Part shown: piece after piece, positions 3,101-19,875 of the stretch
How the letters are laid out: each line of letters starts with the position of its first letter
How positions within the stretch are numbered: position 1 is the first letter of the stretch
From: Candidatus Poribacteria bacterium
GTDB taxonomy: Bacteria; Poribacteria; DTPJ01; WJIO01
Direction of reading: 5' to 3'
DNA length: 19,876 nucleotides
Assembly: GCA_014730235.1 (NCBI GenBank)
Contig: WJIO01000286.1
Span: 1 to 19,876, forward strand
Position numbers and translations under genes: made by a program
The notes under the pieces: generated by a model
Seen by the model: only the letters and a program-made list of their open reading frames with translations
Told to the model about the DNA's origin: nothing
The model's database searches: none

Positions 3101-3656
3101 TCCCAACCTCCTTGTTTGAAATGAAATATTTTTTATACTCTCCAGAATTTTCCGGGATGATATTATAAGATTAAATATCTCCTTTATTATATCGGATAGC
3201 TTTCCTGAATTCTTTAGATATAAATATATGAGGCTCTTCCGGGTTCAGTGTGGTTATAATTGAAAATTCTCTCAGCTCGTCATTCCTGCTTCAAGTTTTT
3301 TGAAAAAGCTTGAGCAAAAAGGAATAATAGTTTCGCAGGAATGACAGCATAAAGAAGCTTCTTATCTTTATACCACACTGAACCCGGAAGAATTATATAT
3401 GATTTTATTAAGATTAACTTCTTGAAACGGGCTTAAATATCTGCTAAAATCACTTAATTGCTAATATTTACTTAATGTAATCTTTAAAGAATAAAGAATA
3501 CGTTTATAATAAAGTATCACCATAATGGTAAATTACAAAATTAGTTATTACTGCAAAATTCCTTAAAATTTCAATAAAAGCATTTAGCAAGGGATAGTAA
3601 AAAGTTGTATTTGTTTGAGATAAGTTATTTTTTAAATATGAATTGAGGTGATAGAT
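3101..3656. other. Divergent intergenic region between FG-GAP gene and glgC
   Basis: About 550 nt of AT-rich DNA between divergently transcribed genes. It holds the 155-nt nested palindrome at 3236-3390. A TATAAT-like hexamer occurs on the minus strand at 3186-3191 and another on the plus strand at 3505-3510, but neither has a convincing -35 partner at normal spacing, so no promoter is called. No coding potential is evident. Confidence 0.5.
3236..3390 (+). repeat. Nested palindromic (MITE-like) element, CTTCCGG family, copy 1
   Basis: The outer arms CTTCCGGGTTCAGTGTGGT (3236-3254) and its perfect reverse complement (3372-3390) enclose an inner element at 3279-3345. The inner element has its own 11-nt inverted repeats (GTCATTCCTGC and GCAGGAATGAC) around a 45-nt middle. 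The left inter-arm segment (about 3255-3278) is nearly the same as in copy 2 at 5058-5235, but the 45-nt middle is inverted between the two. The element encodes nothing and lies between divergent genes. Confidence 0.8.
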
Positions 3657-4940
3657 TTGCCATGTAATGCCATCGGTGTCATTATGGGCGGCGGAAAAGG
3701 AACGAGGTTATATCCACTAACAAAGGACAGGGCCAAACCTGCGGTTCCAATTGCTGGTAAATTCAGACTCATTGATATACCTATCAGCAATTGTATTCAT
3801 TCAGAAGTTGAACGCATGTTTGTTTTGACTCAATTTAACTCAACGTCTCTAAACAGACATATCGTTCAAACTTACCAATTTGATTCGTTCTCAAAGGGAT
3901 ATGTGCAAATACTGGCAGCCCAGCAGACGCAGGAAAATACCGATTGGTACCAGGGTACTGCTGACGCTGTCCGCCAGAATCTAAGACGTTTTCTAGAAAC
4001 ACCCTGTGAATACATATTAATTCTGGCCGGTGACCATCTTTACAGGATGGATTACCAAAAAATGCTGAAAGAACATGAAGAGAATAACGCAGACGTAACA
4101 GTTGCTGTTATACCTGTAGAAAGAGATAAAGTCAATGAACTGGGTATATTAAAAACCAATACTGAAGGACAGATAATAGATTTTGTGGAAAAACCCGAAG
4201 AGGAAGAAGAAATAACCCGAATGGAACTGGAAGAAAGTATCCTTTACCAGCATGGTGTCGATCCAAAAGGACGTTCTCATGTGGCTTCTATGGGTATATA
4301 TGTTTTCAATAAAAGAACACTGGTTGATTGTCTTTCAGATAAAAAAAAGATGGATTTTGGCAAACATGTGATCCCCGGTGAAATCTACCAAAAAAAGATT
4401 TTTGCCCATTTCTTTGATGGTTACTGGAGAGATGTAGGAACTATCAGGTCTTTCTTTGATGCCAATCTAGAACTAACAAAAACAGTTCCTGAATTTGACT
4501 TTTATGATGAAGAAGGTCAGGTTTATACCCATCCAAGATACTTACCAGGTTCAAAAATAAATAGCTGTATATTGCAAGCTTCTATAATATGTGAAGGTTC
4601 TATAATAACTGAATGTGAAATCAGAAATTCTGTAATTGGTGTTAGAAGTATAGTTCGTTCAAGCGCGGAGATATTAAACTCAGTGGTAATGGGAGCAGAT
4701 TACTATGACATTATAAGGGATAAATGCAATCTGGATGATAATGGAGATTTGCATGTAGGTATTGGAAAAGGAAGTATCATAAGAAACGCTATAATTGATA
4801 AAAACGCCAAGATCGGTTGTAATGTAAAGATTATCAACGAGAAAAATTTACAGGAATATGAATGTGATAATTACAGTATCCGGGATGGAATTGTGGTTGT
4901 CCATAAAAATGCTGTGCTTCCTGATAATACTGTTATATAA
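3657..4940 (+). CDS. glgC: Glucose-1-phosphate adenylyltransferase (ADP-glucose pyrophosphorylase)
   Basis: This enzyme makes ADP-glucose from ATP and glucose-1-phosphate, the first committed step of bacterial glycogen synthesis. The nucleotide-binding motif GGGKGTRLYPLTKDRAKPAV is at the N-terminus. FRLIDIPISNCIHS, the QTQENTDWYQGTADAVRQNL glucose-phosphate region, LAGDHLYRMDY, SMGIYVF and YWRDVGTIRSFFDANLEL follow in family order. The last third is a left-handed beta-helix (IICEGSIITECEIRNSVIG and following), which carries allosteric contacts in this family. At 427 residues it is full length. I prefer TTG at 3657 because GAGGTGAT (3645-3652), a long match to the anti-Shine-Dalgarno sequence, precedes it at normal spacing. 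The alternative GTG at 3648 lies inside that site. No other glycogen gene is adjacent, so it appears to be transcribed alone. Confidence 0.95.
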   Translation: MPCNAIGVIMGGGKGTRLYPLTKDRAKPAVPIAGKFRLIDIPISNCIHSEVERMFVLTQFNSTSLNRHIVQTYQFDSFSKGYVQILAAQQTQENTDWYQGTADAVRQNLRRFLETPCEYILILAGDHLYRMDYQKMLKEHEENNADVTVAVIPVERDKVNELGILKTNTEGQIIDFVEKPEEEEEITRMELEESILYQHGVDPKGRSHVASMGIYVFNKRTLVDCLSDKKKMDFGKHVIPGEIYQKKIFAHFFDGYWRDVGTIRSFFDANLELTKTVPEFDFYDEEGQVYTHPRYLPGSKINSCILQASIICEGSIITECEIRNSVIGVRSIVRSSAEILNSVVMGADYYDIIRDKCNLDDNGDLHVGIGKGSIIRNAIIDKNAKIGCNVKIINEKNLQEYECDNYSIRDGIVVVHKNAVLPDNTVI

Positions 4941-5429
4941 TCATATTTTCGCATTGTTTAGATATAGTAAATGTTTATTTTGGTTAGAGTGTGGTAATGA
5001 CAAACAAATTAGTCTTTTCTTGTCCAAGCATAAAATTTATGTCCGTGAAAACTTTGGCTCTTCCGGTTTGAGTATGGTAATAATTTGAAAATTTTCTCAG
5101 CTTGTCATTCCTGCGAAACTCTTATTCCTTTTTGCTCAAGCTTTTTCAAAAAGCTTGAAGCAGGAATGACAAATGGAGGATGTTTTTTCTTAATTGGACA
5201 ATATTTTTTATAATTCCACACTCAAACTGGATGAACCAAAACTTCTGATACAGACTAAAAACTTTATTTGTTACTCCGTTCTTCGCAATAACACAGGGAT
5301 GTAAAATTTATACTTGTTTTTCTTGTTTAATTTGTGGTCTTTTTCCATTACCACACTTAACTCTGAAGAACTAATTAAATTTACATGAGGTTTTGCATGG
5401 GCACACCGATGTGTGCTTTATACTTACCA
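4941..5429. other. Convergent intergenic region filled by palindromic repeats
   Basis: About 490 nt between the ends of two convergent genes. It contains CTTCCGG-family copy 2 (5058-5235). Outside that, GTGTGGTAATG at about 4990-5000 and its reverse complement near 5345-5355 resemble degraded outer arms. They may be the remains of an older element into which copy 2 inserted. No coding potential was seen. Confidence 0.45.
5058..5235 (+). repeat. Nested palindromic (MITE-like) element, CTTCCGG family, copy 2
   Basis: Imperfect outer arms (CTTCCGGTTTGAGTATGG from about 5060, and its diverged complement ending near 5235) surround an inner element of exactly 67 nt at 5104-5170. The inner element has the same 11-nt inverted repeats as copy 1. 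The left segment between arm and core (TTGAAAATT.TCTCAGCT) runs in the same direction as in copy 1. The 45-nt middle of the core matches the reverse complement of copy 1 at 43 of 45 positions. Confidence 0.8.
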
Positions 5430-8627: not shown

Positions 8628-8794
8628 GGTCTTTTCCTCCAAATTTGACTTTTTATATATCCCCAATTTTATTATTTGCCATAGATATTGGTATATCTCA
8701 TCTTTTTAGATATTAACATATAAAAGGGCTTTGTTACAAGAAGAGAATTTTGAAGGAATATGATATTGATTTACAAAGGATATTGATGTATTAT

Positions 8795-8917
8795 GTAAGC
8801 ATTAAAAAATGAATATCACTAATAATGTCATTCCTGCTTTCGCAGGGATGATAAATTTTATAATTAATCATAGAAAAAGCGAATATTACAAATACCTCTT
8901 TAATTTTTTAAGGTTAC
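8795..8917 (+). repeat. GTAATC-family palindromic MITE, copy A (123 bp)
   Basis: The ends are GTAAGCATTAAAAAATG and the complement of GTAACCTTAAAAAAT. The centre is the hairpin GTCATTCCTGC-TTTC-GCAGGGATGAT (8827-8852). Its right half, TAGAAAAAGCGAATATT, matches copy C in the same orientation, yet the central tetraloop is TTTC where copy C has GAAA. Flanks ATTAT/ATTAG could be a decayed target duplication. There is no coding capacity. Confidence 0.75.
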
Positions 8918-10789: not shown

Positions 10790-10807
10790 TCCGCTTAACT
10801 GTAAAAT

Positions 10808-10920
10808 TCAGATTCCTCTTTACTCAAGCTTTTTCCAAAAAACTGAAGCAGGAATCCAGAAGCTTAACATAATGACTGGATTCCTGCTTTTTCAGGAATG
10901 AAATACTTAGAAAATTTTCA
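10808..10920 (-). repeat. Degenerate CTTCCGG-family element (third copy)
   Basis: ATTCCTCTTTACTCAAGC and GAAGCAGGAAT match the 45-nt core seen at 5115-5159. The right part, CAGGAATGA...CTTAGAAAATTTTCA, matches the reverse complement of the conserved left segment in copies 1 and 2, so this copy lies in the opposite orientation. The outer arms are not recognisable. The element occupies the gap between convergent genes. Confidence 0.6.
10846..10892 (+). terminator. Bidirectional intrinsic terminator formed by the repeat element
   Basis: AAGCAGGAATCCAG (10846-10859) pairs perfectly with CTGGATTCCTGCTT (10876-10889) around a 16-nt loop, and a T-run (10888-10892) follows on the plus strand. On the minus strand the stem runs into AGTTTTTT just beyond it. 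It therefore can serve both the acetamidase gene (+) and the LamG gene (-), which converge here. Confidence 0.7.
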
Positions 10921-11783: not shown

Positions 11784-11907
11784 GTAATCGTTAAAAAATG
11801 GATATAATTTAGTTGTCATCCCTGCTTTCACAGGAATGACAAATTTTGTGATTTACCATCATTATAAAGGTATTTTCTAAACACATTTTTCATTTTTTAA
11901 CAATTAC
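11784..11907 (+). repeat. GTAATC-family palindromic MITE, copy B (124 bp)
   Basis: The terminal repeats GTAATCGTTAAAAAATG (from 11784) and the complement of GTAATTGTTAAAAAATG (ending 11907) match at 16 of 17 positions. The centre is GTCATCCCTGC-TTTC-ACAGGAATGAC (11815-11840). TTAATT is found directly outside both ends, consistent with a target duplication. The right terminal repeat overlaps the stop codon of the DUF362 gene (11904-11906). Confidence 0.8.
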
Positions 11908-13457: not shown

Positions 13458-13497
13458 TTATAAATTTCCTTTCTACAAATATATGTTTGTTTATTAC

Positions 13498-13621
13498 GTA
13501 ATCGTTAAAAAATAAATATAAAAATATTGTCATTCCTGCGAAAGCAGGAATGACAAATTCTACAATTGACCATAGAAAAAAGCGAATATTGTAAACATAT
13601 TTTTCATTTTTTAAAGATTAC
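13498..13621 (+). repeat. GTAATC-family palindromic MITE, copy C (124 bp)
   Basis: The ends are GTAATCGTTAAAAAATA (13498) and the complement of GTAATCTTTAAAAAATG (ending 13621). The central hairpin is perfect: GTCATTCCTGC, tetraloop GAAA, GCAGGAATGAC (13529-13554). ATTAC lies directly outside both ends, a candidate 5-bp target duplication. It separates the sulfatase gene (ending 13667) from the VOC gene (starting 13457). Confidence 0.8.
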
Positions 13622-13666
13622 ATTACATATTTTGATAATGATTATAGCTTAACAGAGATTACACAA

Positions 13667-19737: not shown

Positions 19738-19772
19738 CTAAGCCTGTTTTCAACACCCCTTTAAATCCTATT
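19738..19772 (-). repeat. Right copy of the 35-nt inverted repeat bracketing the window
   Basis: Its reverse complement matches 107-141 at 31 of 35 positions, with GGTGTTGAAAACAGGCT conserved without change. It begins at the stop codon of the partial minus-strand reading frame that enters from the window end. The other copy adjoins the IS256 remnant, so both copies sit next to decayed sequence. Confidence 0.6.
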
Positions 19773-19875
19773 CAAGTTTTACAGGTTCCAGATAAACATC
19801 AGGATGTAGCAAACCCAAAACCTGAATTAAGTCATTCTGAAACTGGGTTAAAGGCGCAATCTGCTTCCAGCAACT
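19770..19875 (-). CDS. C-terminal end of an unidentified protein, cut by the window edge
   Basis: The minus strand is open from the window edge for 34 codons, encoding WKQIAPLTQFQNDLIQVLGL and then LHPDVYLEPVKLE, before a TAG at 19770-19772. The composition looks like real protein (amphipathic, no odd bias), but the piece is too short to identify. It could be a transposase tail, given the repeat directly after it, or an ordinary gene. Confidence 0.35.

Follow-up and report, generated by a model that had tools for sequence, protein, structure and literature searches.

Two look-alike palindromes, copies A and B, lie on either side of glgC in the stretch of DNA analysed here (the window, 19,876 nt), and they raise the question why their inner cores point in opposite directions. 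The window is contig C225 of a Poribacteria-like MAG (5.53 Mb, 451 contigs); the best named protein relatives of its glgC product belong to Candidatus Poribacteria (56% identity). A sequence-only reading had described an inner element of exactly 67 nt with common ends in each copy, and this was reproduced: both units are bounded by GTCATTCCTGC...GCAGGAATGAC (11-nt ends), and their 45-nt middles agree at 43 of 45 positions as reverse complements versus 12 of 45 in direct alignment. As had been stated, the two copies agree in the direction of their left outer arm and of the stretch that leads up to the core (repeat D19, 83% of 35 nt). The interpretation given at that time, namely that the core had flipped within a fixed outer element (by template switching or by recombination at the 11-bp repeats) or that the inner unit had been inserted twice in opposite directions, is partly supported. 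From the comparison of copies within one assembly, the opposite cores are probably explained by the collapse of a REP dimer plus additional reorientation or exchange of whole tips. The reversed relation between the cores is genuine, but it mostly records which mirror-image half survived, and an apparently flipping DNA core would thereby find an ordinary explanation.

Anatomy and nesting of the two palindromes

The boundaries of both copies were reset from the terminal inverted repeats (TIRs) and target duplications (TSDs), which were read directly, and are given in Table 1. Both copies have the left arm L1, whereas the right outer arm is of R1 type in copy A and of R2 type in copy B, a difference that the sequence-only reading had not mentioned. 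Both MITEs end in GGYTCTTCCGG. ISL3 elements make 8-bp target duplications. Among the scored ISL3-like copies an 8-bp TSD matching at 7 or 8 of 8 positions was found in 72 of 118, versus approximately 6% of shuffled pairs. The element is like ISL3-family MITEs in its GGYTCTTCCGG ends, its 8-bp A/T-rich target duplications and its lack of coding sequence, and it fits this family; the tie to a transposase is drawn from about 11 end bases. The assembly contains an ISL3 transposase fragment in which CCGGATGAACC overlaps the stop codon, and the ISL3 transposase matches run off the ends of their contigs (GGTTCATCCGG at C342:4013 versus GGTTCTTCCGG). No intact parent IS of the ISL3-like MITE was recovered in the assembly.

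Copy B is nested in a second MITE, element P, with the ends CCAAGCATAAAATTTATGTCC and a perfect 9-bp TSD. Of the P matches with a scored TSD, 24 of 34 agreed at nine of nine positions, in a list that holds both strands and in which palindromic matches appear twice. The junction between MITE and P is identical in many copies, suggesting that these copies probably descend from a single nesting event. Right beyond element P, at 5346-5373, there is a further ISL3-like terminal repeat (ACCACACTTAACTCTGAAGAAC), and comparable stretches found matches in other genomes of this phylum.

Table 1. Positions of MITEs, REP tips and target duplications in the window.
Feature	Position	Strand	Remarks
Left 8-bp TSD of MITE A	3224..3231	.	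ATATATGA
ISL3-like MITE copy A, L1 arm / REP tip / R1 arm	3232..3394	+	TIR GGCTCTTCCGGG..CCCGGAAGAATT
67-nt collapsed REP unit in A	3279..3345	+	core orientation F, right-half type
Right 8-bp TSD of MITE A	3395..3402	.	ATATATGA
Left 9-bp TSD of element P	5015..5023	.	TTTTCTTGT
Element P, second MITE holding MITE B	5024..5317	+	TIR CCAAGCATAAAATTTATGTCC
Left TSD of MITE B	5048..5055	.	AAAACTTT
ISL3-like MITE copy B, L1 arm / REP tip / R2 arm	5056..5237	+	
67-nt collapsed REP unit in B	5104..5170	-	core orientation R, left-half type
Right TSD of MITE B	5238..5245	.	AAAACTTC
Right 9-bp TSD of element P	5318..5326	.	TTTTCTTGT
26-nt collapsed REP tip, MITE family N	8827..8852	.	loop TTTC
REP dimer, uncollapsed but decayed, long type	~10799..10902	.	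45-nt-loop half, CCAG-spacer-CTGG, short-loop half; repeats D10 + I3
26-nt collapsed REP tip, MITE family N	11815..11840	.	loop TTTC
26-nt collapsed REP tip, MITE family N	13529..13554	.	loop GAAA, opposite to 8827 and 11815

The pattern of the 67-nt unit had 53 matches in the 5.53-Mb assembly and the reversed control pattern had none; this copy number is far beyond chance. Two further settings share the tip. MITE family N (8780-8911, 11784-11907 and 13483-13625) is a separate family with ends like GTAATCGTTAAAAAATG, whose REP tip is common with the ISL3-like MITEs. Context K is a third repeated setting that also holds the 67-nt unit (ATGTTTATAAGAATTCAGCATGAAG..TTCTAT / AGCCTGATAGCATTTTC.., loci L009-L023, e.g. 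G000:C95:20167, C103:22675 and C190:87), and its right side close to the tip resembles the L1 arm. The nearest whole genome compared is of the same order only (glgC 69% identical) and is without any such MITE, and a pattern scan of genome contigs gave no match. No Rfam family matched within the window, and a literature search with the letters of the repeats returned unrelated work alone.

Both palindromes are non-coding MITEs, each with the shrunken remnant of a mirror-image REP pair. The copies belong to known kinds: CGTC-1-type REP dimers, many of them collapsed, at the tips of ISL3-like MITEs, some of which sit in a second MITE.

The REP tip and its dimer

Judged from its layout, the tip is a CGTC-1-type REP and ancestrally a head-to-head dimer, which reads GTC-ATTCCTGC-GAAA-GCAGGAAT-CCAG, followed by a spacer of 16 to 21 nt and the mirror image of the first part. 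Di Nocera and co-workers (Di Nocera et al., 2013; PMC3733652) have described head-to-head dimers of CGTC-1 REPs, including Neisseria dRS3 and Rickettsia RPE-6, as well as dimers inside longer palindromes in H. neapolitanus and A. variabilis. Common to those REPs and the present ones are the GTC tag (TGTC or CGTC), the 8-bp ATTCCTGC stem, the 4-nt loop, the CCA tail, the arrangement of dimers with tags outward and the lack of a dedicated transposase. The terminal CGTC or TGTC is contained in the tag, which is CTTGTCATTCC in most copies and CTCGTCATTCC in copy A. Asymmetric monomers (ATTCCTGC-GAAA/GGAA-GCAGGAAT-CCAG) have an 8-bp stem starting with AT, a 4-nt loop and a CCA-type tail, and 45 dimer-like tips were listed with their tags outside, i.e. 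head to head, which is the prevailing dimer type among CGTC-1 REPs. There are also differences. Many dimers are collapsed to symmetric singlets here, some tips carry a loop of 25 or 45 nt and so depart from the 4-nt loop of the CGTC-1 definition, and the palindromes that hold them are MITEs flanked by target duplications, in stacks of up to three layers.

REPINs (Bertels and Rainey, 2011; PMC3116915) are likewise inverted REP doublets forming one long hairpin, and it has been proposed that REP singlets form by deletion inside such doublets. Whereas REPINs have an associated RAYT gene, the copies here ride in MITEs, and no RAYT was found in the assembly, which is approximately 92% complete. Its single Y1 transposase is of IS200 type, lies in a contig (C236) without any GTCATTCC palindrome and has no REP adjoining, so that a RAYT origin was rejected. 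The tips do not flank a tyrosine transposase, in agreement with CGTC-1 REPs.

Loops and tips were counted in about 1.25 Mb chosen around the repeats, a sample enriched for copies relative to the whole genome. Among 240 tips the loop was 4 nt long in 106, 45 nt in 50 and 25 nt in 26, and others had 48-53 or 87-93 nt. The original head-to-head design is visible in the 48- and 89-nt loop classes, and some dimers have a 45-nt loop in place of one of the tetraloops. The decayed dimer of the long type (Table 1) shows the ancestral layout within the window itself. In this sample the 24- to 27-nt loop class contains about 40 tips that form near-perfect long palindromes (TTCAAGCTTTTT-n-AAAAAGCTTGAA); their centres vary, and changes in them come as symmetric pairs. 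Since this class was not seen among the asymmetric monomers, it may have arisen from the 45-nt form by completion of the palindrome.

Loop orientation and the proposed loss of one dimer half

Flipping of loops inside hairpins would be expected to affect REPs with asymmetric ends as well. The asymmetric REP monomers (GTC..ATCC) carried the loops GAAA (48), GGAA (15) and 45R (13), plus others that were mostly purine, and not one of 76 had an inverted loop (TTTC, TTCC or 45F). In the same-order genome G001, all 33 matches had a purine-type loop. Both orientations were seen only where the ends are symmetric (GTC...GAC), and there the 4-, 25- and 45-nt loop classes each occurred in both. Inspection of the loop in asymmetric-ended repeats can thus serve as a test that separates true hairpin-loop inversion from the unequal loss of halves.

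The dimer contains 8-bp direct repeats 44 nt apart, with ATTCCTGC present twice and GCAGGAAT twice. An in silico deletion of 44 nt converted the plain dimer to a 26-mer with either TTTC or GAAA (70 - 44 = 26), and the two orientations of the long dimer to exactly the 45F and 45R 67-mers (111 - 44 = 67). These lengths, which follow directly from the sequences, fit without adjustment. Together with the 0 of 76 inverted loops in asymmetric REPs, this means that the opposite cores need no loop inversion.

We propose that the tip of the ISL3-like MITE was at first a REP dimer of the head-to-head type, in which two hairpins mirrored each other and had their tags on the outside, and that in one lineage one half exchanged its tetraloop for a 45-nt loop. 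The dimer would often lose the 44 nt between the 8-bp direct repeats in the course of replication or repair, presumably by slipped-strand deletion. A deletion from one ATTCCTGC to the other would keep the right half (TTTC / 45F) and a deletion from one GCAGGAAT to the other the left half (GAAA / 45R), either of them leaving a single hairpin with symmetric GTC...GAC ends. Because the halves are mirror images, survival of the left or the right one would leave the loop in opposite directions (45R or 45F; GAAA or TTTC).

In L1/R1 arms, 21 tips with GAAA stand against 17 with TTTC, close to 1:1, and the figures among copies with intact TSDs are 11 and 10. MITE family N served as a control: its four long-spacer dimers all point the same way, whereas both loops are found among its 26-mers, as they are among the three N copies of the window (Table 1). 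The sequence-only reading had taken an orientation fixed per arm subfamily as a sign of two old independent events. Tabulated across copies, this does not hold for L1/R1 (13 F : 6 R) and nearly holds for L1/R2 (1 F : 14 R). Collapse would provide a route from dimers to REP singlets, a question raised in the REP literature, and this genome with its very many nested copies is available for measuring the dimer-to-singlet change.

Reorientation or exchange of whole tips, and rival explanations

Collapse does not account for everything. Whole dimers were directly observed both ways round in ISL3-like arms (approximately 9 versus 6 in L1/R1), and in 12 of 12 long dimers (our own tally) the side of the 45-nt loop is linked to the orientation of the spacer, suggesting that the whole dimer was reoriented and not the spacer alone. 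The P-nested copy C311:4067 (45R), which is without a clear P target duplication, is identical to C365 and C23 (45F) at 141 of 144 and 140 of 143 positions outside the unit (98%). Two other P-nested copies, C368:22548 and C76:8619, have the same spacer type in opposite directions. Tips with one change per stem arm had compensated pairs in 10 of 16 cases, compared with about 0.5 expected (P ~4e-12 if independent), and six of these ten pairs sit in the outer GTC/GAC pairs, which derive from different halves. Collapse alone does not explain compensated pairs, so the tips also undergo hairpin-templated correction, template switching or exchange with other copies, be it in cis or in trans. Besides collapsing, the whole tip was at times turned round or passed between copies, and the most plausible route is template switching or gene conversion via the palindromic stems. 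As regards the earlier claim of a core flip at the 11-bp repeats, such a flip is not needed for the core (76 of 76 un-inverted; exact 44-nt collapse), whereas reorientation as such is borne out by the dimers lying both ways and by 45F and 45R in 98%-identical copies.

Inversion in situ, in which the polymerase switches from one 11-nt stem to its complement and reads the loop backwards, with no dimer involved, was our first model. The two orientations in symmetric tips of all three loop lengths, the compensated stem changes and C311:4067 compared with C365 and C23 speak for it, and single loop flips by template switching have been described in RNA genes, alike in having the loop reversed within a fixed stem and compensated stem changes (Monttinen and Loytynoja, 2022; PMC8794818). 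However, the template-switch pattern (loop reversed, stem kept, same length) is confined to the symmetric tips here and absent from the asymmetric monomers and from the 33 matches in G001, although perfect 8-bp stems are present there too. Simple loop inversion was demoted for this reason and seems rather unlikely to us, as the symmetric cases are explained by dimer collapse without inversion; unlike in the RNA genes, the reversal is mostly accounted for by the surviving half of a mirror-image dimer. Alternatively, MITEs might convert each other's tips in trans via stems that pair either way, so that loop class and orientation are shuffled among families. This is a serious though less favoured possibility, since identical tips are found in families whose arms are unrelated (ISL3-like, N, K), neither tip class nor orientation is linked to the arm tree, and some copies have mixed arms. 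On the other hand, the dimers of family N all have one orientation, joins made by the assembly at the 67-nt repeat may account for several mixed-arm copies, and the arm tree lacks the strength to reveal exchange (left-right arm Mantel r 0.154, not significant). The comparison of arm tree and core orientation was dropped as evidence: GAAA required 18 changes versus a shuffled mean of 16.8, and loop length as a control was equally unlinked, so that the tree is without power. With so weak a tree, tip exchange between copies could mimic many collapses.

The idea that the 67-nt unit was mobile and entered twice in opposite directions is very unlikely. REP dimers within larger palindromes are known (PMC3733652), so an ancestral dimer must once have entered the ISL3-like MITE, but the tip sits at the identical junction in approximately 176 of approximately 180 genuine left arms, the few tipless arms look like deletions (our own reading of the list) and no convincing empty site was found; moreover, both orientations occur among P-nested copies with one common MITE-in-P junction. 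An assembly artefact, by which short reads were mis-joined at the 67-nt repeat, is still less probable. The 451-contig MAG is short-read-like and several contigs end inside these elements, yet TSDs match at the frequency given above for the ISL3-like copies and at nine of nine positions in most scored P elements, and both window copies pass this test. Matching TSDs tie both sides of the tip to one insertion and thus answer most of the concern about misassembly; from matching TSDs, C340 and C365 also seem to be two parts of one element, and so do C304 and C23 (our own reading of the list). Least credible of all is an active site-specific inversion switch at the 11-bp repeats, for which the presence of both orientations in one genome could be cited. 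Loops of 4 nt are too short for recombinase synapsis and show the same pattern, no recombinase-like ORF was found beside the copies (translations read by eye), and the 45-nt core is without promoter or gene; we found no sign of recombinase-driven or programmed inversion.

We therefore keep to dimer collapse with additional reorientation or exchange of whole tips. A more far-reaching suggestion, which we make only tentatively, is that REP tips are orientation-blind exchange points through whose stems MITE families swap or reverse whole tips. If this is true, hundreds of copies in a single genome document template switching driven by hairpins, the collapse of dimers and the correction of stems. 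Copies with a different arm family on either side of the tip (contigs C360, C264, C343, C72, C146 and C375 of G000) could be products of recombination at the tip or assembly joins, and because of the latter they were left out of the main evidence.

Two other features of the window were recorded. A transposase ORF at 388-1149 reads like the IS256 family. Near both contig ends, at 104-141 and 19738-19775, lies an inverted repeat of 38 nt with 87% complementarity, possibly the sign of a repeat at which the assembly broke.
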